37,384 nucleotides of DNA. Origin: Armatimonadota bacterium (lineage in GTDB: Bacteria; Armatimonadota; Hebobacteria; GCA-020354555; CP070648). The stretch is taken from contig DATLAK010000065.1 in the NCBI GenBank assembly GCA_035527535.1, forward strand, positions 1 to 37,384. Reading direction: 5' to 3'. The notes beneath the pieces were generated by a model that ran no database searches, had not been told where the DNA came from, and was given only the letters and a program-made list of their open reading frames with translations. Position 1 is the stretch's first letter. Every line of letters starts with the position of its first letter. This document shows positions 321 through 37,198 of the stretch, piece after piece. A program made the position numbers and the translations under genes.

Positions 321-2792
321 TCACTGCTTGGCGTCTGGCCCGTGAACGTCCGTGCTTCCGCCCAGTGCCGGCAGAGACATGGAGGCGAGCCCTGGGATAG
401 TTGCCGGCTGTGCTACTTCCGCCCCAAGCCGTGGGGTAACGAAGATTGCGAGGACGCTTTCCTCGGTCTTCTGGTGGGTGCTGCGGAAGAGCTGGCCGAT
501 GAGCGGCAGGTCGCCCAGCAGCGGAGTCTTCTTGGACGACTTCGTATCCTGGCGCAGCATAAGCCCACCGATCATGATGGTTTCGCCCTCGCTGACCATG
601 ACGCTGGTGGTCGCATTGCGGCTGGTCACATCCGGCAAAGTGCTCGTCCCGGTGAACGTGAAGTTGCCGACTGCCACCTCGACGTCCACCAGGATATGCC
701 CGTCCCCCAGGGCGCGAGGCGTGATCTTGCCGATAATGTCCGCCGAGATGTCGCTCTGCTGGATGATGGGGCGGCCGTACTGGTCGTAGCCCTGGGTGTA
801 GAAGTAGTATTTGGTGCGCCGGATGTTGATGGTGGCAACCCGACCGCTGAGGGCGACCAGCCGCGGATTGGCGCGAATGGTCACGTCGCCCTTCTGCTCC
901 AGCGCATTCAGGTTGACGTAGAACTTGCGGTCGAGCTTGCCCACGCCCTGGTAGAATATCTGCCCCGGCCCCAAGTCGCCGATGGGCAGCAAGCCGCCGA
1001 AGCGCCCCTTGGCATAGCTCCAGTCCAGCCCCAGGTCGCGGCTGGCGTCCTTGGACATCTCGGTCACCAGCACGTCCATCGTCACCTGGGGTGCCGGGGT
1101 GTCGAGGGCCGCGAGGTATGCGCGAATCTGCTCGGCCTTGTCAGCGGCCCCGACGCAGATTAGCAGGTTGCGCTCCGGCTCGGTGCGGCAGTAGCTCCGG
1201 TACTCCTCGGGCAAGCACGCCAGGGCCTGCTCGGTGGTCAGGTACTTAGGGCGGATCAGTTGGCCGTTGATGGCGCCGGTCGCCGGCGCAGTTGCAGTCG
1301 AAGGCGCGACCACGGTCTCGGGGGCGGGGGGCGCAGGCGTCACCGACGGAGCGGATGACCCGCTGCCAGGCGCAGTGCCCTTTACCGCCAACCTCTCCTC
1401 CGTCTTCGGGAGCGTCAGCACATACAGGTCCGGCTCGTACTGCTGCTGCTGCCAACTGATGACCTTGGCCTGGCAGAAGAGTATCCGCTCGCTGTCGGGG
1501 GCCCAGGACTCGCACTCATAGTAGATGTAGTACGGGTCCTTTCCCTGGCGGCACGATAGCAGCCGATTGACCTGTTCAGTGGTCGTCTCATAGACCTCGA
1601 GCGCATCTCCCGGGTCGGTCTTCTGTGCTTGGTCTCCCGTCCCCCGTAGGACGTACGTCAGCCCATGGCGAAAGACCCTCTTGGAATCCGGTGAAATCCA
1701 CCAGTCGTGATCCTCGCTCAGGTTGCGAGCGCCGACCGGGGTCCCCAGAATGCGCCGCCACTTTCCCTCTCGCCAGTCAATAAGGAACGTGCCCTTGTAG
1801 CCCCAGGCCTCATCCTGAATCACGCCATGGCAGATGATGTAGCTCTGGTCGGGGGCCCAGGAGGGATGGACGAACGTGCCCCTACCCGCGGTCGAGTGGC
1901 TTGCGCCTGAGACGATGGTGTGCTCGTCCGTGCCGTCAGGGCGCACAAGAAGGATGTCCCACTTCGAGCCCATCCTGACTTCGTCCGGGTACCGGTCCTT
2001 GGCGGAGAAGAAAACAATCCACTCGCCATCGGGGGACCATTTCGGCTCGCCGCAGCTGCGGTGGTCGTTCGTAACCTGGAATAAGCCGGTGCCGTCTATG
2101 TTGGAGCGCCAGATCTCCGGTGTCGTGGACGGCGCGGGACGTGCGGCAAAGGTGATCTGCTTGCTGTCGGGCGACCAAGAGCCATTGCTGTCGTAGGCTG
2201 TTGTCCCGAATAGATTGCCGCCAATGCGCACCGGCTCCGTACCGTCGGCAGGAAAGACCCATAAGAACCATTTCCCGCGCTGGCGGTCGCGAATCTGGTA
2301 GGCGAGATGCTGGCCATCCGGGGCCCAAATCGGCGGCGCATCGCCCCCCGCGCCGAAATCACCGCGCTGATAGCCGCCCATGATGCGCTTGGTGTCGCCA
2401 GTGGCGAGATCGTACACGCAGACGCACGCGTCGCTCTGGTCTTCGTTCTTGTTCGCGAAGACGTAACCGATCTTCGTCCCATCAGGCGACCAGCCGGCAA
2501 GCATCGGCCAGCCAACGGCGCTGATGGCGCGTGAGTCGGAGCCATCGCCGTTCATGACGCACAGCTCGCGATCCGACTTGCTGACCGTGCGGTAGAAGAC
2601 CACAAGATCACCCTTGGGGGCGAACCCCGCGCCGCGCTCGGTATAGGACTTCCCGTCTCTGGTGAGTTGTCTGATGACAACATCGGGCGCGACCTCGTAG
2701 GCCCAGGCCCCGCTCGTCGCGACTGCAATGACTGCCGCCAAGCACACTACCCGCGCAAGACAATACAGACGACCCCCACTGTCAGCACTCAA
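321..2792 (-). CDS. TolB-like beta-propeller / secretin-domain fusion protein
   Basis: This 823-residue exported protein starts at TTG 2792, with a GGGAAGGGGG ribosome-binding site upstream. Residues 1-31 look like a signal peptide ending in AWA. Residues about 35-470 contain repeated W-(S/A)-P-D-(G/S/Q) blades typical of PD40/TolB propellers. A Pro/Ala/Thr-rich linker (about 475-510) follows, then a short N-domain-like segment (515-575). The C-terminal secretin domain ends with the family signature VSEGETIMIGGLM, then PLLGDLPLIGQLF and a final LAIFVTPR. Secretins form outer-membrane rings in type II secretion and type IV pili. Here the usual extra N-domains are replaced by a propeller, and no other pilus or secretion genes are nearby. 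The assignment of both domains is firm; the role is unknown. Confidence 0.85.
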   Translation of the reverse strand: MSADSGGRLYCLARVVCLAAVIAVATSGAWAYEVAPDVVIRQLTRDGKSYTERGAGFAPKGDLVVFYRTVSKSDRELCVMNGDGSDSRAISAVGWPMLAGWSPDGTKIGYVFANKNEDQSDACVCVYDLATGDTKRIMGGYQRGDFGAGGDAPPIWAPDGQHLAYQIRDRQRGKWFLWVFPADGTEPVRIGGNLFGTTAYDSNGSWSPDSKQITFAARPAPSTTPEIWRSNIDGTGLFQVTNDHRSCGEPKWSPDGEWIVFFSAKDRYPDEVRMGSKWDILLVRPDGTDEHTIVSGASHSTAGRGTFVHPSWAPDQSYIICHGVIQDEAWGYKGTFLIDWREGKWRRILGTPVGARNLSEDHDWWISPDSKRVFRHGLTYVLRGTGDQAQKTDPGDALEVYETTTEQVNRLLSCRQGKDPYYIYYECESWAPDSERILFCQAKVISWQQQQYEPDLYVLTLPKTEERLAVKGTAPGSGSSAPSVTPAPPAPETVVAPSTATAPATGAINGQLIRPKYLTTEQALACLPEEYRSYCRTEPERNLLICVGAADKAEQIRAYLAALDTPAPQVTMDVLVTEMSKDASRDLGLDWSYAKGRFGGLLPIGDLGPGQIFYQGVGKLDRKFYVNLNALEQKGDVTIRANPRLVALSGRVATINIRRTKYYFYTQGYDQYGRPIIQQSDISADIIGKITPRALGDGHILVDVEVAVGNFTFTGTSTLPDVTSRNATTSVMVSEGETIMIGGLMLRQDTKSSKKTPLLGDLPLIGQLFRSTHQKTEESVLAIFVTPRLGAEVAQPATIPGLASMSLPALGGSTDVHGPDAKQ

Positions 2793-18429: not shown

Positions 18430-20097
18430 ATGATCAAGGAGCTACTGCGGGAGATACTGCGAAGGGCCCTCGACGAGGCGGTCACGGCGGGCGAGCTGAG
18501 GCCGGTGGGCGCGCCCGAGATCGAGCTCCTGGATCCTCCCGATCCTCGCTTCGGCGATTTCTCGACGAATCTGGCCATGGTTGCCGCCAAGGCGCAAGCG
18601 CGCGCGCCGCGGGAGGTCGCGCAGGCGTTGGTCGCGCGGCTGGAGGATGACCTCATCGAGCGGGCCGAGATCGCGGGCCCCGGCTTCATCAACTTCTATC
18701 TCAAGCCGACGTGGCTGGATGACGTCGTGTGCGCCATCCACGCGCAGGGCGAGCGCTACGGTGGGCGTGATGACGGCGGCGGCGAGCGCATCCTGCTTGA
18801 ATTCGTCAGCGCCAACCCGACCGGGCCCTTGAATGTGGTCAATGGGCGCGCGGCGGCCATCGGCGACACGCTGGCGCGCCTGCTGGAGTTGCGCGGCTAT
18901 CGGGTCTCCCGCGAATACTACATCAACGATGCCGCCAGCAGCACCCAGGTGCAGAAGCTTGCGCTGTCACTCGACGCACGCTACTGCCAGGCCCTGGGGC
19001 AGGATAAGCCGGTCCCCGAGGACGGCTACAAAGGCGAGTACCTGGCGCAGATGGCGCGCGAGCTGATCGCCGTCGCCGGCGACCGCTACCTGAGCCTGCC
19101 CGAGGCCGAACGCTTGGCGGCCTGCACCGCGTTTGCGGAGCGCGGCTTCGTTGAGAACCACCGCCATGTGCTGGAGACTTTCGGCGTGGCTTTCGACAAC
19201 TGGTTCCGCGAGAGCTCCTTGTTTGACAGCGGCGAGGTGGAACAGGTCATCGCCCGCCTCAAGGAACTCGGCCACACCTACGAAGCGGACGGAGCGGTGT
19301 GGCTGCGTGCGACGGCTTTCGGCGATGATAAGGACCGGGTCCTCGTGCGCAGCAACGGCAAGCCCATGTATGTCGCCTCCGACGCGGCCTATCACAGAAA
19401 CAAGTTTGACCGCGGCTTCTCGCGGCTGATAGACATCGTTGGTCCCGACCATCATGGGTGGGTCGCGCGTACGCGGGCGGCCGTCGCGGCGATCGGCTGC
19501 GCGGTGGACCGACTGGAGATTATCATCACCGGGACGCTGCGCCTGTTCAGGGGCGGCGACTTGGCTCACATGTCCAAGCGCGCCGGCGACATCATCACCT
19601 TGGAGGAGGTGCTGGAGCAGGTCGGCGCCGACGCCGCGCGCTACTTCTTCCTCATGCGCTCCACCGACAGCCCGCTCGATTTCGACCTCGACCTGGCGGT
19701 GCGCCAGTCGCCCGAGAATCCGGTTTACTATGTGCAGTACGGCCACGCGCGTATCTGCAGCATTCTGCGCAACGCCGAGGAGAAGGGAGTCGCTCTCCCC
19801 GACCCGCGCGCGGCAGATTTGACCCTGCTGCGCGAACCCGATGAGCTGGCGCTCATGCGCAAGCTGGCCGCCTTCCCGGAAGAGGTGGAAATGGCAGCTA
19901 GACTCTACGAGCCGCACCGCATGACGCGCTACGCATCCGAGGTGGCGACGGCCTTTCACGTCTTCTACACCAATTGCCGCGTTCTCGGCGACGATCCGAA
20001 GCTGACCGCCGCGCGGCTGACGCTGGTGGGGGCGGCGCTTATCGTCCTGCGAAACGTCCTGCGCCTGCTGGGCGTCAGCGCCCCGGAGCGGATGTAG
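18430..20097 (+). CDS. argS: arginyl-tRNA synthetase with altered HIGH motif
   Basis: This 555-residue class I enzyme charges tRNA-Arg. The ATG at 18430 has GAGG eight bases upstream. An N-terminal Add-1-type tRNA-binding domain (FGDFSTNLAM, then GPGFINFYL) leads into the catalytic domain EFVSANPTGPL. The usual HVGH signature reads Asn135-Val-Val-Asn138. The KMSKS-like loop is intact (HMSKRAGD, 380-386), and the C-terminal domain (FDLDLA, ENPVYYVQYGHARI) is normal. The gene is full length with good codon use, so it looks functional. Its TAG stop lies inside a perfect palindrome. Confidence 0.93.
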   Translation: MIKELLREILRRALDEAVTAGELRPVGAPEIELLDPPDPRFGDFSTNLAMVAAKAQARAPREVAQALVARLEDDLIERAEIAGPGFINFYLKPTWLDDVVCAIHAQGERYGGRDDGGGERILLEFVSANPTGPLNVVNGRAAAIGDTLARLLELRGYRVSREYYINDAASSTQVQKLALSLDARYCQALGQDKPVPEDGYKGEYLAQMARELIAVAGDRYLSLPEAERLAACTAFAERGFVENHRHVLETFGVAFDNWFRESSLFDSGEVEQVIARLKELGHTYEADGAVWLRATAFGDDKDRVLVRSNGKPMYVASDAAYHRNKFDRGFSRLIDIVGPDHHGWVARTRAAVAAIGCAVDRLEIIITGTLRLFRGGDLAHMSKRAGDIITLEEVLEQVGADAARYFFLMRSTDSPLDFDLDLAVRQSPENPVYYVQYGHARICSILRNAEEKGVALPDPRAADLTLLREPDELALMRKLAAFPEEVEMAARLYEPHRMTRYASEVATAFHVFYTNCRVLGDDPKLTAARLTLVGAALIVLRNVLRLLGVSAPERM

Positions 20098-20121
20098 GGG
20101 CAAGGCATGCCTTGCCCCTAC
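20094..20121. repeat. 28-base perfect palindrome over the argS stop codon
   Basis: GTAGGGGCAAGGCA is followed immediately by its exact complement. The argS TAG is bases two to four of the palindrome. It could fold at the 3' end of the argS mRNA as a terminator or stabilising hairpin, but there is no T-tract. A relative, GTAGGGGCGCAC-GGC-GTGCGCCC, is at 20165-20185. Confidence 0.7.
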
Positions 20122-20123
20122 GT

Positions 20124-20147
20124 GTGGCACAGCCGCCCTCGGCTGTG
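20124..20147 (-). repeat. CACAGsCG-type hairpin repeat, left copy
   Basis: Read on the minus strand it is CACAGCCG-AGGG-CGGCTGTG followed by CCAC, an 8-base perfect stem. The copy at 21341-21364 is identical except for a compensated base pair (C-G changed to G-C). The two lie in inverted orientation around the nuclease-like gene. Confidence 0.65.
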
Positions 20148-20164
20148 ACCGCGCCCTACGCAGG

Positions 20165-20185
20165 GTAGGGGCGCACGGCGTGCGC
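20165..20185. repeat. GTAGGGGC-type hairpin before the nuclease-like gene
   Basis: GGGCGCAC-GGC-GTGCGCCC preceded by GTAG. It is the same type as the ahcY-leader hairpin and the argS-end palindrome. Confidence 0.55.
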
Positions 20186-20208
20186 CCATTCCGTCCAGGA
20201 GGGGTATC

Positions 20209-21288
20209 ATGGCCAAGCTATGGCAGATCGCTGCGGGTGAACGTACCCGCTACTACGGCGATTGGTTCCTCGAGCACGACGTGATGTTCATGGGGCCGGG
20301 ACGGCACGGCTGTTATGCGGAGAACGAGGCCAAGTACGGCCAACTGAGGAATGGGTTGCGCCGCTTCGTCGACGTCAAGAAAGTGCAGCCTGGCGACGTT
20401 GTCCTCTTGCGCTGCGGCCAGAGGGCCAAGGCCATCGGACTGGTATTCGGGGACTATGCGTGGCGTGAGACTTTCGACGACGTGCACGGGTGGGACCTGC
20501 AGCACACTCGAAGAGTGATCTGGCAGGAAGACCTGAAGGATGAGCTGAATCGGGTCCAGCCCGAGGAAGGCTTCTTCCGTTCGAAGCAGGCCGCGACGTT
20601 CTCCGCGGTGAACGATCCGAAGGTCATCGAGCAGATAGAGCCGCTTGGCGGGCGCTGTCAACCGAGGGAACTGAAGCGGCTGCCCGAGGTTCCCCGCGAG
20701 GTCTCCCGTCCGCTGGAACTGCCCGAACTCGGACGCGAGCTCTACTCGCGCGGCATCCCGAACGACGCGGTGGACAGAGCACTGTCGGCAATCGAGCGGC
20801 AGCGGCAGCTATGGCAATGGTATGACGAGCACGGGCAAGCAAGCGGGCGACCGACGGAGCACGAAGTCGTCGCGCACCTGGTGTTGCCGCTATTGCTCGC
20901 GCTCGGCTGGTCGGAGCAACTGCTGGCGATCGAATGGAATCGAATTGATCTCGCGGGCTTCTTTCGCACACCGACGCGCAAGGAGGACTGTGTCCTCGCG
21001 TGTGAGGCCAAGGGAATGGGGCACGGGTTGCAGGATGAGAGGACATTCGACCAGGCGAAGAAGCACACGCACGGGCTTGCCCGGTGCGGAAGACTGCTGC
21101 TCACTAACGGCGCCAGGTTCTATCTGTACGAGCGACAAGGAGACAAGTGGTGCGACCAGCCCGCCGGTTATCTCAACATCAACCGGATTCGCACCGCGCA
21201 CCTCGTGCCGACCAACACCAACGCCGTGGATACCATCGAGGCCCTGACGCCGGCCGGAGTCCTACGCCCATTGAAAACGGCATCGTGA
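20209..21288 (+). CDS. PD-(D/E)XK nuclease-like protein with N-terminal PUA/EVE-like domain
   Basis: 359 residues from ATG 20209, with GGAGGGG six bases upstream. Residues about 1-110 (MGPGRHGCY, KKVQPGDVVLLRCGQRAKAIGLVFGDY) resemble small beta-barrel PUA/EVE-type readers of nucleic acid. Residues about 220-335 resemble the N-terminal nuclease domain of type I restriction HsdR-like proteins. PTEHEVVAHLVLPLLLALGW is followed by Asp-Cys-Val-Leu-Ala-Cys-Glu-Ala-Lys (about 261-269), the D...ExK arrangement, and ARCGRLLLTNGARFYLYE. No methyltransferase, specificity or helicase subunit is adjacent. A stand-alone defence nuclease is plausible, but the function is not established. Confidence 0.6.
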   Translation: MAKLWQIAAGERTRYYGDWFLEHDVMFMGPGRHGCYAENEAKYGQLRNGLRRFVDVKKVQPGDVVLLRCGQRAKAIGLVFGDYAWRETFDDVHGWDLQHTRRVIWQEDLKDELNRVQPEEGFFRSKQAATFSAVNDPKVIEQIEPLGGRCQPRELKRLPEVPREVSRPLELPELGRELYSRGIPNDAVDRALSAIERQRQLWQWYDEHGQASGRPTEHEVVAHLVLPLLLALGWSEQLLAIEWNRIDLAGFFRTPTRKEDCVLACEAKGMGHGLQDERTFDQAKKHTHGLARCGRLLLTNGARFYLYERQGDKWCDQPAGYLNINRIRTAHLVPTNTNAVDTIEALTPAGVLRPLKTAS

Positions 21289-21340
21289 CCCCGCGCGACG
21301 GCTGCAAACGAGTTTCGCGGTGTTGGGCCGCCTACGAGAT

Positions 21341-21364
21341 CACAGGCGAGGGCGCCTGTGCCAC
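21341..21364 (+). repeat. CACAGsCG-type hairpin repeat, right copy
   Basis: CACAGGCG-AGGG-CGCCTGTG followed by CCAC, with an 8-base perfect stem. It is the inverted partner of the copy at 20124-20147, with the nuclease-like gene between them. Confidence 0.65.
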
Positions 21365-21460
21365 ATGAGCATGCGCCCTCTCCCGGCAGGCTTGGTCGCG
21401 CCGTCGGCGAATAACGCGCTGCCGGAGTTGCCGGTAAGACCCGAGACCATGGAGAGAGGG

Positions 21461-22402
21461 ATGCCTGAGGTAGTATGCGTGGGGATACTGGTAGCCGACG
21501 TTCTCGCCAAGCCGGTAGACGTCTTCCCCGAGCGGGGACGGCTCACGCTGGTGGACCGCATGGAACTGCACACCGGCGGCTGCGCGGCCAATACCGCCGT
21601 CGGCCTGGCGCGGGTGGGAGTGTCGACGGGCCTCATCGGCAGGGTGGGCGATGACGGTTTCGGCGATTTCTACATGTCGGCGATGCAGCGCGAGGCGGTT
21701 GACGCCTGCGGTATCATCCGCGACCCCGCCGCCAACACCTCCAGCACCATGGTGCTGGTGCACGGCGACGGCGAGCGCTCTTTCATTCACTGTCTGGGGG
21801 CCAATGCGGCGCTGCGCGCGCAGGACGTTGATCTCGACGCCATCGCCGGGGCCAAGGTTCTGCACGTGGCCGGGACCTTCCTGATGCCCGCGCTGGACGG
21901 CGAGCCGACGGCGCGGCTGCTGCGGGAGGCGAAGCGGCGCGGAATCATTACCAGCCTCGACACCGCCTGGGACAGCACCGGTCGCTGGATGGAGCTGATC
22001 GAGCCCGCGCTGCCCCACCTCGACTACTTCGTGCCCAGCATCGAGGAAGCACGCAGGATCACCGGCGCCGACGATCCCGCGGACATCGCGCAGGTGCTGT
22101 TTGGCCACGGCGTCGGGGTGGTAGCGCTGAAGATGGGAGACGCCGGCTGCTACGTCGCCAGCCGCGATCAGCGCCTGCGCCTGCCCTCCTTCGAGGTGGC
22201 GACGGTTGACGCCACCGGCGCGGGCGACGCTTTCGCGGCCGGCTTCCTGGCGGGAGTGGTCGAGGGCTGGAGCCTGGAGCAGACCGCGCGTTTCGCCAAT
22301 GCCGTCGGCGCGCTGTGCGTGCTGGCGGTGGGGACAACCGCCGGCATCAAGAACATGGACGAAACGCGGGAGTTCATGGCGTCGGCGCGTCTTCGGCAGT
22401 AG
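21461..22402 (+). CDS. PfkB-family carbohydrate kinase
   Basis: 313 residues. The ATG at 21461, with GGAG six bases upstream, is chosen over ATG 21449. This cytosolic ATP-dependent sugar or nucleoside kinase has the two PfkB signatures: GGCAANTAVGLARVGV (about residues 43-58) and DATGAGDAFAAGFLAG near residue 250, with the catalytic Asp in GAGD. TSLDTAWDSTGRW and VPSIEEARRITG are typical of the ribokinase-like group. The substrate cannot be assigned from sequence. It ends 76 bases before the next gene. Confidence 0.88.
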   Translation: MPEVVCVGILVADVLAKPVDVFPERGRLTLVDRMELHTGGCAANTAVGLARVGVSTGLIGRVGDDGFGDFYMSAMQREAVDACGIIRDPAANTSSTMVLVHGDGERSFIHCLGANAALRAQDVDLDAIAGAKVLHVAGTFLMPALDGEPTARLLREAKRRGIITSLDTAWDSTGRWMELIEPALPHLDYFVPSIEEARRITGADDPADIAQVLFGHGVGVVALKMGDAGCYVASRDQRLRLPSFEVATVDATGAGDAFAAGFLAGVVEGWSLEQTARFANAVGALCVLAVGTTAGIKNMDETREFMASARLRQ

Positions 22403-33862: not shown

Positions 33863-35192
33863 CTATCCCGGCGAGCCCCTCAGAGCGCCGCTCCGCCGCG
33901 CACTCTTGCGTTTGAATCGCAGGTCAATTACGTGCTTGCACCCTCCTTCAACCACCCCCGAACCGATGGGCCAGCCGGCAGCTCGAGACAGGGGATAGCG
34001 CAGTCGCGCCTGAGGGGCCCCCAGGTAGTTAGCCGTTTTGCGCAGCACTTCGTCAGGATCGGCCACCGTGTGCGCCAGCTCGCGCAGCTCTTCCTCCAGT
34101 CCTTCGGAATGCCCGCATCGCAGTTCCCCATTCCAGTGCCCCACCAGCGCCGCCGTCTCCGCCGTGCCTTCCCCATGCACCACCCGCCCCGCCGCCCACA
34201 AATGCTCACATGCGTGATACCAGTGGCTAAGCCCTTCGGGCCGCCATGGCGGTCTTTCAGACCTAGCCATCCAGAATCTGGGTCGGGCGCGATAACATCG
34301 TGGTCGCGGTCTCCCAAATCCACGGCGCGCCATCGGCGACGACCGCCGTCGCCTGGGCCGTGGGTGCGCCGCGGACCAATGCTTCCCGGTACAGTGGTTC
34401 TTCGAACTCCTGCGCTGGCAGCCAATCGGCAATGTAGGTCACCGCTCGTGGTTTGCCCTGTCGCCAGCCCATGAAAGTGGCCACCTTGATCTCGCGCCAC
34501 CCGTCTTCCAGGTGCGTCGTGGTACCGTCAATCTCCGCCACCATACGCCCCTTGACCCGCTGCGCATACGGCTCCGGCGTCAGTTCCGCCGCTCCCCAGC
34601 GCCCCACGATGCGCTGCGCCGCCCGCAGCGACACCTCGATTGCGCATAAGCGGCGCAAGCTGGTGAGCGCCTGGCGGTAAGGCAGCGCCGCTGCCTGCTG
34701 CGCCACCGCTTCCTCGAGGTGGCGACTGAAGCCATGCTTCCACCCCAGCCACTCGTCCGCGGGAAAACTGCGGGCCCCACATCCCTGACACCGCAGGTAC
34801 TGCCGCACCACCCGCACCGGCCCCAAGCGGGTGAGTACGGTGCGCGAGCGCTGGCTGTGGGCGTGGCGACGATTGCCGCACTCACATTGGCGCTCGGCTT
34901 GCGCCTGCGCCGTCTCTGCCCGTACCTGTAACCCCGCCTGCAATACCCGCTGGCCTAGTTTGCGGCTCCATGCCAGCGCCATTTGTTCCGCCGCTTCCCC
35001 ACTGGCGGCGGTCATCACCTGCGCCCATAACGCTTGAACTTCCCCTGCCACCGACCGTGCCAACTGCGCCACCCGCGGCAGCCCGGCTGCGTTTAGTGCT
35101 ATCACAAGGCCGCTATCCTTCCCGCCGAGCTTCGGCCCGGCTGCGATTTGGTCATCCACGGAAGGATAGCACTTTTTTCTCCCCATCCCCAC
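33863..35192 (-). pseudogene. ISKra4-type transposase disrupted by a cloverleaf repeat
   Basis: The N-terminal 309-residue frame (35192 to 34263) has a zinc-ribbon-like CECGNRRH...CQGCGARSF segment, VRVVRQYLRC, and AEIDGTTTHLE; it ends at VVADGAPWIWETA...TQILDG-stop. The C-terminal frame resumes HWYHACEHLWAAGR, then AAGWPIGSGVVEGGCKH. Intact relatives read ILD(W/F)YHA-x-EHLW here. Deleting the 46 bases at 34223-34268 joins LD to WYHACEH in frame, giving about 427 residues. The C-terminus after SARRSG looks short. I could not identify terminal inverted repeats. Confidence 0.85.
34223..34268. mobile_element. cloverleaf palindromic repeat, copy D, inserted in transposase
   Basis: 46 bases: GT, then outer stem GGCTAAG/CCTAGCC, with arms CCC-TTC-GGG, CCGCC-AT-GGCGG and TCT-TTC-AGA. 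It is in the opposite orientation to copies B and C. It interrupts codons GAT|TGG of the transposase and brings in an in-frame stop (TAG at 34263-34265 on the minus strand). No target duplication longer than about one base is visible. Confidence 0.85.
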
Positions 35193-35266: not shown

Positions 35267-35343
35267 TGCGGGGTGGAGCAGTCAGGAAGCTCGTCGGGCT
35301 CATAACCCGAAGGTCGCTGGTTCGAATCCAGCCCCCGCTACCA
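35267..35343 (+). tRNA. initiator tRNA-fMet (CAT)
   Basis: 77 bases including an encoded CCA. Acceptor stem GCGGGG/CCCCGC at positions 2-7/66-71; D stem GAGC/GCTC with the A11-U24 pair; anticodon stem TCGGG/CCCGA with three G-C pairs; loop CTCATAA with anticodon at 35301-35303; T arm GCTGG-TTCGAAT-CCAGC. The three G-C pairs and the unpaired 1-72 position mark it as the initiator. Position 1-72 is U-U here rather than the usual C-A. The 3' half is overlapped on the other strand by the recombinase gene. Confidence 0.95.
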
Positions 35344-37198
35344 TCCCGATTGCATCGCCCGTCTCGCGAGAGGCGGGCGATGCCTTTCTGGCCGCCAGCG
35401 GCGGGCCGGCGAACAGGTGCATCCAGACGTCGCCGGTGTCGGGGTCAAGCTCGATGCGCTTGACGAACAGCCGGGCGAAAGCGCGCTTCTCCTCGTTCGT
35501 GCCTTCCGCGAAGACCTCGGCAAAGGCCTGGCGGCATTCCTCGACGTGGGTCATGTCGAACTCCGGCACCTCTGGCTCGGCTCCGACCGTCGCCTGGCGG
35601 GCGAGTAGCCCCTCGCGCTCGGCCCGGAGACGCCGCAGCTCCTCGTTCGCCCACGCAACGTCATCCAGGCCCTTCCTGATGGCCTCCCGGATGTTGGTGG
35701 TCTCCTGCTCGATGCTGGCCAACTGGCGTGCGATCTCGACTGACTCCGCCGCCTCCTGCTGGCGCACGCCGCGCAGGCCCTGGTTCATGGCCTCCATCAG
35801 CCGCTTGGTATCGGCCCAGGACTCGAAGAGCAGCCCGACCTCCTCGACCACCGCGTCCTCAATCGCCTCCTTGCGCACCTGCAGCGCCGGCCCGCAGCCC
35901 AGGCCGCGGCGGTAACGGTACGCGCCGCAAACGTAGTAGAGCCGCCCCTGGTTGCGGTATCCCACCAGGTTGGCTCCACAGCGCTTGCACACCAGCAGCC
36001 CTCCCGTCAGCAGGTACCGGCTGCCGTCGGTGCGCACCGTGGCCATGCGTCCTTTGGAACGGTCCGACCCGATGCGCCTCATGTCCTCGTTGACCTGCAT
36101 GATGGCCTCGGCCTCTTCGAGGGTGATGACGGCGGGGTGCGCGTTCTCGACGATTTCCCATTCGGAGGGGGGCCGGTGGCTCCCGCGCTTGCCGTGGACG
36201 TTCCAGACCGCGTAGCCCGCATATTGCAGCAGCGCCGATGGCTCCAGCAGGCCGTGCCAGGTGCTGACCGCCCAGTAGCGCTTGCGCGGCGACGGCACCT
36301 CGTGCCGGTTGAGGAAGTCGCAAATGTGATCGAGCGATGCCCGCTGCTGCAGCCGAAGCTCGACCAGCGCGTGGCGTGCCCACTCCCACACCGGGCGTCC
36401 CGAGACGATGGTGTCGTCTTTCTCCCAGAGCGTCTTCATGATGGGCGCGCCCCGGCGGTCGCTGCCGCGCTGCACCTTGTACGCCTTGAAGCCCCACAGC
36501 GGCGCGCCGCCGTTCTTGTAGCAGAACCCAATCTCCGAGTCACGCCGCCCGGCGTTCTCGCGCATGCCCTTGCGGGTGTGGAAGGCCACGTCGAGCGAGT
36601 AGGAGGCGTTCTTGAACTCGGTCATCTTTTCCAGCGCCAGCCCGGCTACCGTGCGCGGATCGAAATCCGGCTCGGTCACCGAGACCACGCGCACGCCGTG
36701 GGTGAGCAGTCTTCCCTTGACCATAGGCCCGGCATAGGGATCGCGGAAGAACCGGGAATGGTCGTGCACGAGGATGGCGGTGACCTTGGGGTCGCGCCGG
36801 GCATGCTCGACCATGCGCCAGAAGACGGAGCGGCGGCTCTCGTCCGAGAAGGCGCTCTCGGCCTCCTGGTATGTCTCGACGATGGAGAGGCCCTTTTGCC
36901 GGGCGTAATCGCGCATGGCCCGGATCTGGGCAGGAATGGACAGGCCGGCGCGCTCCTGGTCATCGGTGGAAACCCTGGCGTATGCCAGGCATCGCACCTC
37001 AACCGGCGCCTCGTCCGCGTGCTCCTGCACAACGCCCGAAATGATGTCGCTCAGCTTCATGCCCTCATCCTCCTTGCGCCTCCCCGGAAAGCGCCACGCG
37101 CCCAGGCCACCGCCTTGATGGCTTGGGTAGGGGAGGAATCGCGCTCGCCGCTCGGCGCGCCCACCAGAAGCCTCAACCAGGTTCTGTGTAGCACTCAT
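35300..37198 (-). CDS. large serine recombinase (integrase)
   Basis: 632 residues from ATG 37198, which overlaps the upstream stop as ATGA and has a perfect AAGGAGGTG site; ATG 37060 (586 residues, GGAGG upstream) is a good alternative, since third-position GC is lower in the first 46 codons. The resolvase domain has YARVSTDDQE with catalytic Ser77 (Ser31 from the shorter start). A Recombinase domain (WGFKAYKV to PHAVI region) follows, then a zinc ribbon CKRCGANL...YYVCGAYR, and a coiled coil rich in Glu/Arg. The C-terminus GAGFEPATFGL is translated from the complement of the tRNA, and the TGA stop overlaps the anticodon. Confidence 0.92.
   Translation of the reverse strand: MSATQNLVEASGGRAERRARFLPYPSHQGGGLGAWRFPGRRKEDEGMKLSDIISGVVQEHADEAPVEVRCLAYARVSTDDQERAGLSIPAQIRAMRDYARQKGLSIVETYQEAESAFSDESRRSVFWRMVEHARRDPKVTAILVHDHSRFFRDPYAGPMVKGRLLTHGVRVVSVTEPDFDPRTVAGLALEKMTEFKNASYSLDVAFHTRKGMRENAGRRDSEIGFCYKNGGAPLWGFKAYKVQRGSDRRGAPIMKTLWEKDDTIVSGRPVWEWARHALVELRLQQRASLDHICDFLNRHEVPSPRKRYWAVSTWHGLLEPSALLQYAGYAVWNVHGKRGSHRPPSEWEIVENAHPAVITLEEAEAIMQVNEDMRRIGSDRSKGRMATVRTDGSRYLLTGGLLVCKRCGANLVGYRNQGRLYYVCGAYRYRRGLGCGPALQVRKEAIEDAVVEEVGLLFESWADTKRLMEAMNQGLRGVRQQEAAESVEIARQLASIEQETTNIREAIRKGLDDVAWANEELRRLRAEREGLLARQATVGAEPEVPEFDMTHVEECRQAFAEVFAEGTNEEKRAFARLFVKRIELDPDTGDVWMHLFAGPPLAARKASPASRETGDAIGMVAGAGFEPATFGL

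Follow-up and report, generated by a model that had tools for sequence, protein, structure and literature searches.

The window analysed here, a stretch of 37,384 nucleotides from the genome of an Armatimonadota bacterium, contains an intact open reading frame (ORF) whose product is predicted to join a reader of modified bases to a nuclease (Table 1). The ORF listing of the window gives the product 359 amino acids, and the start codon is preceded by a probable ribosome-binding site. The gene lies between argS and a gene for a PfkB-family kinase, all three being on one strand; GC content is 63-65% near the gene and 65-67% within argS, as compared with 70-72% farther out. An earlier note on this DNA had described a lone nuclease-like gene among housekeeping genes, with no methylase or helicase partner. 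The flanking genes agree with that description, and a Pfam search of the 14 other window proteins, those of the larger ORFs, found neither a methylase nor a helicase partner.

The gene is bracketed by two inverted 24-nt hairpin repeats, which coincide with the top-quality inverted pair that the repeat search found around it (31 nt, 87% complementary, 20123-20153 and 21335-21365). Their stems, CACAGCCG/CGGCTGTG and CACAGGCG/CGCCTGTG, are one compensated pair apart, and each hairpin folds alone (-15.4 and -13.8 kcal/mol). Repeat search, stems and folding therefore agree with the earlier note on the two hairpins and the compensated pair between them, and the palindromes that it had reported to the left of the gene are indeed there, as a GTAGGGGC palindrome and a second, cut-down one.

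Table 1. Features of the locus, in window coordinates.
Feature	Position	Strand	Basis
Neighbouring gene argS (arginyl-tRNA synthetase)	18430..20097	+	Pfam
GTAGGGGC palindrome, as GTAGGGGCAAGGCATGCCTTGCCCCTAC	20094..20121	.	Overlaps argS stop codon; 52 exact genome sites
Left 24-nt hairpin repeat	20124..20147	+	Inverted-repeat search; folding
Second, cut-down GTAGGGGC palindrome, as GTAGGGGCGCACGGCGTGCGCCC	20165..20187	.	Read directly
Probable ribosome-binding site AGGAGGGG	20197..20204	+	Read directly; 4 nt before ATG
Gene for predicted EVE-like reader and PD-(D/E)XK (HsdR-N-type) nuclease, 359 aa	20209..21288	+	ORF, structure, family
PUA-superfamily EVE/YTH-like domain, predicted modified-base reader, residues 1-150	20209..20658	+	VIA-align, alignment
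PD-(D/E)XK nuclease domain, HsdR N-terminal type, residues 212-357	20842..21279	+	VIA-align, alignment
Codon, predicted catalytic D247	20947..20949	+	Invariant 9/9
Codons E266-A-K268	21004..21012	+	E and K invariant 9/9
Right 24-nt hairpin repeat, inverted, one compensated pair	21341..21364	-	Inverted-repeat search; folding
Remnant, 3' end of the membrane-protein-like gene seen in G001	21385..21460	+	Local DNA alignment
Neighbouring PfkB-family kinase gene	21461..22402	+	Pfam

Elsewhere in the window, Pfam identifies a large serine recombinase (Resolvase, Recombinase and zinc ribbon; 35300-37198, minus strand), beside which lies a transposase-like ORF that seems to be split by a frameshift (33863-35192, minus strand; judged by eye, with no Pfam match). 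A further ORF (321-2792, minus strand) combines WD40-like propeller repeats (PD40) with a secretin domain (Pfam), a combination that we judge unusual.

Two predicted domains of the protein

The structure prediction proposed in the earlier note recovers both domains. An AlphaFold2 model built from a 7-row alignment of the family reached a pLDDT of 76.6 and a pTM of 0.73, with values below 50 at residues 30-54, 84-88 and 94-96. When compared by VIA-align, residues 2-150 matched the EVE-HNH restriction enzyme VcaM4I (6yex_A; Z 9.6, 127 aligned residues, rmsd 3.2), which was also the sole Foldseek match in the PDB at E<=0.001. The same residues matched 2p5d (Z 9.4) and 2hd9 (Z 9.0), both of which we take to be EVE-type proteins, and the N-terminal domain matched YTH domains, some of them with m6A ligands, at Z 7-8. 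Residues 212-357 matched the HsdR fragment 3h1t (Z 11.8, 113 aligned residues, rmsd 4.0), and much the same C-terminal part matched DrdV (Z 9.7) and BpuSI (Z 9.3).

Conservation within the family follows both domains. In the nuclease domain, E217-H218-E219, D247, E266, K268 and Q282 are invariant in all nine aligned homologues; the loss of the D-ExK residues in orthologues, which the earlier note had named as evidence against its reading, is thus not seen. In the reader domain, W85, W95 and W105 are kept in 9/9. The tyrosine of a QxxxY-type motif, present in the homologue at L007, is replaced by H in the window copy.

Among the seven family members searched with domain profiles, three matched HSDR_N_2 (best E 1.3e-7) and two HSDR_N, and none matched the curated EVE profile (Pfam). 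The window protein itself had no match at E<=0.1 in Pfam and none in NCBIfam, and its matches in PADLOC were weak; assignment to PDC-S02 or mad2 was rejected on that ground (PDC-S02 E 1e-3 for the window protein, 2.8e-6 for the Cupriavidus homologue). Searched by sequence against the PDB, the window protein alone gave matches at chance level and the A2 profile gave none. As no EVE profile matches, the evidence for an EVE domain comes from a predicted model that is weak in places. With that qualification, the claim of an N-terminal reader-like domain followed by a nuclease is supported by the predicted EVE/YTH fold (Z 9.6 to 7), by the predicted HsdR-type nuclease fold, by the catalytic residues and by the HSDR_N_2 matches.

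A shared fold proves no function, and there are PUA domains, YTH among them, that read RNA. The reader might bind modified RNA, as YTH domains do, or some other ligand, in which case the protein would be a stress or abortive-infection nuclease and no restriction enzyme. The YTH domains with m6A ligands among the structural matches speak for such a role, as does the occurrence of prokaryotic EVE and YTH domains in toxin-antitoxin and other contexts, as outlined in PMC7641849. We nevertheless consider it unlikely, for the N-terminal domain finds its best match in a restriction enzyme that depends on DNA modification, and the matches of the C-terminal domain are type I and type IIG DNA nucleases.

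Distribution of the family and the displaced resident gene

The gene is sparsely distributed. With the protein as query, 2 of 61 genomes had a match, the organism's own and G019; with alignment A1 as query, matches were found in 13 of 291 genomes of the phylum, six of them (the own genome included) near full length and seven weak and partial. None of the 13 relatives in the class has the gene, and conserved presence at the same site in all relatives, the other observation that the earlier note would have counted against its reading, is therefore not what we find. Among the homologues are a protein of 363 aa in a Zixibacteria MAG (50% identical), one in Cupriavidus metallidurans (32%), a decayed copy in a Planctomycetes MAG (start lost, one stop and one frameshift) and a copy on a Photobacterium toruni plasmid that starts next to an IS3 and lacks the beginning of its N-terminal part. 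Transposition genes of the TnsA, Mu/TnsB and TniB types lie ~4 kb from the Cupriavidus metallidurans homologue (L056 8911-18215).

With one exception, the neighbours at six homologue loci are ordinary (FecR, DUF4838, AP_endonuc_2, TldD, YbeY, HD, DUF1501, Colicin_V/CvpA-type and YqeY), housekeeping genes such as those for YbeY, TldD, YqeY and the CvpA-type protein among them, and standing alone is the usual state in the family. The exception is G159, where the homologue adjoins a phage-type integrase, with DISARM-type DrmD and DrmMI ~2.7 kb away. Two homologue contexts hint at defence and mobile DNA. The stretch L047 1936-14914, where the homologue beside the integrase has DISARM-type DrmD and DrmMI together with a Fic-like protein (PDC-S04) within 12 kb, resembles a defence island. 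A viral origin was also considered and set aside: no relative was found in viral contigs or, with two queries, in phage records, and a fold search of BFVD gave a single match (E 1e-4, TM 0.34), to a phage protein from the Caudovirales whose annotation is HsdR N-terminal.

Since one homologue has decayed and another has lost part of its N-terminal domain beside IS3, the family is not under constant selection. A rival idea is that the window gene is itself decaying under neutrality, a passenger that at present does nothing, to which the broken Planctomycetes copy and the histidine at the otherwise conserved tyrosine of the window copy lend some weight. That idea is distinctly improbable, however, given a full-length ORF with a plausible ribosome-binding site and catalytic positions that are intact despite deep divergence (50% identity to the nearest homologues).

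The interval between argS and the kinase gene differs among relatives, as became clear from the comparison that the earlier note had suggested. All 14 genomes given have argS. In G001, the only genome of the same family, argS is followed by a gene for a membrane-protein-like product of 268 aa (judged by eye, with no Pfam match) and then by the kinase gene, so that the site is occupied there by another gene. A similar membrane-protein-like gene adjoins the kinase gene in G016 and G018 and lies ~1.2 kb from argS in G015, and the order in G001 therefore looks ancestral. Between the right hairpin and the kinase gene of the window, positions 21385-21427 match the G001 gene at its 3' end (alignment score 55, as compared with a maximum of 30 in 500 shuffles), and the remnant, which corresponds to the last ~16 codons, is in frame (AGLVAPSANNALPELP in the window, AGFVALVANNALLELL in G001). 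No other copy of the membrane-protein-like gene was found in the organism's own genome (G000). The remnant and the lack of a second copy imply that most of the resident gene was lost and that the nuclease gene stands in its place. From these comparisons of sequence, the nuclease gene was probably acquired horizontally in this lineage; an assembly fault is an unlikely but conceivable source of the gene replacement.

Hairpins and palindromes across the genome

The repeats around the gene have many counterparts. In the own genome of 3,241,837 bases, the hairpin pattern occurs at 57 places with <=2 mismatches (22 of them without mismatch) and at 87 with <=3, and the reversed pattern, used as a control, occurs at none; the perfect GTAGGGGC palindrome has 52 sites and its control 0. 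Compensation in the stem extends genome-wide, with 15 of the 22 zero-mismatch copies in one form, six in the other and one unpaired there. Among 20 relatives, G001 has 11 hairpins, G005 two, G015 one and the remaining 17 none. In a side-by-side comparison of 55 copies, from which the three copies on G000:C44 were left out, the flanks had little in common except an A and a T immediately preceding the repeat (69% and 85%). Behind several copies a palindrome ending in GCCCCTAC follows directly, as in compound arrays, and the left side of the nuclease gene is such an array of hairpin and palindrome. Where hairpins form doublets 50-62 nt apart, 7/7 are in (+,-) orientation, head to head. G000 doublets 50 nt apart (for example L102 294-367, L074, L078, L086 and L042) have a GGCGCC-type palindrome between their head-to-head copies and are REPIN-like in appearance.

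Hairpins and palindromes thus form a REP-like family scattered over the genome: like REPs and REPINs, they are palindromic, recur in many copies and often stand as inverted doublets. A PF01797 search found three Y1-type transposase genes in the own genome; the stretches read around these Y1_Tnp genes held no hairpin at <=3 mismatches, and halves of the GTAGGGGC palindrome lie near two of the three. As GTAG-tagged REPs and REPINs are outlined in PMC3733652 and PMC3116915, the likeness extends to short intergenic palindromes, compound arrays, inverted doublets and the presence of Y1-type genes in the genome, and the present elements differ in that no hairpin lies in the stretches read around the three Y1 genes and in that the GTAG palindrome is symmetric at both ends.

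The earlier note had taken gene and repeats together for a cassette, in which the inverted hairpins would be the ends of a mobile unit that brought the gene in, a REPIN-like pair stretched around its cargo. This claim is not supported. If 57 hairpins are scattered at random and pairs are defined as neighbours 300-2500 nt apart, 2.1 pairs are expected and five were observed at <=2 mismatches (P = 0.057), and ~1.1 single genes would have a hairpin in both adjoining gaps by chance (assuming 2,900 gaps). At <=3 mismatches there are eight gene-sized pairs: five are (+,-), three have both copies in the same orientation and none is (-,+), a bias for which our own arithmetic gives P of about 0.03 and which, with the REPIN-like orientation of the close doublets, favours a cassette. 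The five (+,-) pairs hold the EVE-nuclease gene, a NOV_C gene, a class-III aminotransferase gene (in an arginine-type operon, with a small ORF inside the pair too), a gene resembling a TIM-barrel isomerase and an ORF resembling a transporter, both of these last being identified by eye. Two of the five thus hold lone, patchily distributed nuclease-like genes and three hold ordinary genes.

The NOV_C gene lies alone between uvrA and uvrC, bracketed by the inverted pair L103 5098-5779 (G000:C38:25097-25778). It encodes 152 aa (PF13020, E 2.4e-6) and was found in 1 of 61 genomes. In the sister genome G001 its site is empty, with uvrA directly next to uvrC.

Although the orientation bias and the NOV_C pair point toward a cassette, the genome-wide counts, the ordinary genes in the other three pairs and the chance estimates led us to reject it as the best explanation. 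The repeats are specific neither to the nuclease gene nor to its empty or filled sites. They also do not travel with the gene, since the G019 genome has a homologue and 0 hairpins, and the remnant of the displaced gene is detectable from 20 nt beyond the right hairpin, so that the hairpin need not be the edge of the replacement. The evidence for a cassette is insufficient in our judgement; REP-like elements settling in new permissive gaps explain the arrangement with less. We regard a cassette as highly improbable, and likewise the broader idea that inverted REPIN-like pairs carry single nuclease genes (EVE-nuclease at argS, NOV_C at uvrA-uvrC) that have no transposase gene of their own and are moved by one of the Y1-type transposases of the genome. 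The repeats occur beyond chance, yet they are not special to the nuclease gene.

Proposed function and relation to known systems

On the basis of the predicted fold of both domains, the conserved catalytic residues, the solitary context, the patchy distribution, the displaced gene and the dispersed repeats, we consider it likely that the product is a modification-dependent (type IV-like) restriction enzyme, complete in a single chain, whose gene was acquired horizontally, the repeats being dispersed REP-like elements. How such an enzyme would work we infer, from base flipping and the modification read to dimerisation, cutting and phage defence, and the same holds for the order of events at the locus. 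By analogy with VcaM4I, the EVE-like domain (PUA superfamily) would seize a modified base, most likely a modified cytosine, on phage or plasmid DNA entering the cell and flip it into an aromatic pocket. The linker would then let the HsdR-type PD-(D/E)XK domain cut nearby DNA, probably as a dimer and with Mg2+. No methylase would be needed, because unmodified host DNA would not be a substrate, and the lack of one beside the gene is consistent with this; the gene is probably a one-gene phage defence. The acquired gene would now stand in the place of most of the resident membrane-protein gene between argS and the kinase gene, and the hairpins and palindromes would be REP-like elements that came to rest in the flanking non-coding gaps.

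The closest parallels are found among enzymes that read modified DNA. EVE-PD(D/E)XK fusions already figure among the putative type IV enzymes of Bell, Wolf and Koonin (2020, PMC7641849); as presented there they have the same two-part architecture and are predicted to carry out modification-dependent restriction. Their EVE domains were found by sequence methods, whereas the window protein has no Pfam EVE match, although many EVE-type domains are stated by Bell et al. (PMC7641849) to need HHpred for their detection. VcaM4I, whose EVE domain is described as flipping 5mC or 5hmC into a pocket formed by P24, W82 and Y130 (PMC7897488), is likewise a single chain with an N-terminal EVE-like domain (residues 2-150 of the window protein); its nuclease, however, is HNH, whereas that of the window protein is of the HsdR-type PD-(D/E)XK class, and the likeness of the two EVE-like domains is one of fold. 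The nuclease domain shares its fold, and in three of seven members its HSDR_N_2 match, with the N-terminal nuclease of type I HsdR (3h1t; EcoR124I 2w00), from which the window protein differs in having no helicase or translocase and no HsdM or HsdS. A type I restriction enzyme was rejected, as the 359-aa chain ends after the nuclease domain and no partner was found among the neighbours tested.

Among the titles listed in literature searches on EVE and type IV enzymes, none names a bench-tested EVE-HsdR-type enzyme. The architecture had already been predicted by Bell et al. 2020 (PMC7641849), and the gene adds one more predicted enzyme of this kind.

For hairpins found around a lone gene, the present case illustrates that a genome-wide count is needed before they are named the ends of a cassette, and the comparison with the sister genome shows clearly how a probable defence gene can come to occupy the place of a resident gene. 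The gene adds a compact, sparsely distributed branch, composed of an EVE-like reader and an HsdR-type nuclease, to the predicted modification-dependent restriction enzymes. If active, its product would form a small one-gene barrier to phages whose DNA is modified and might serve to map modified bases.
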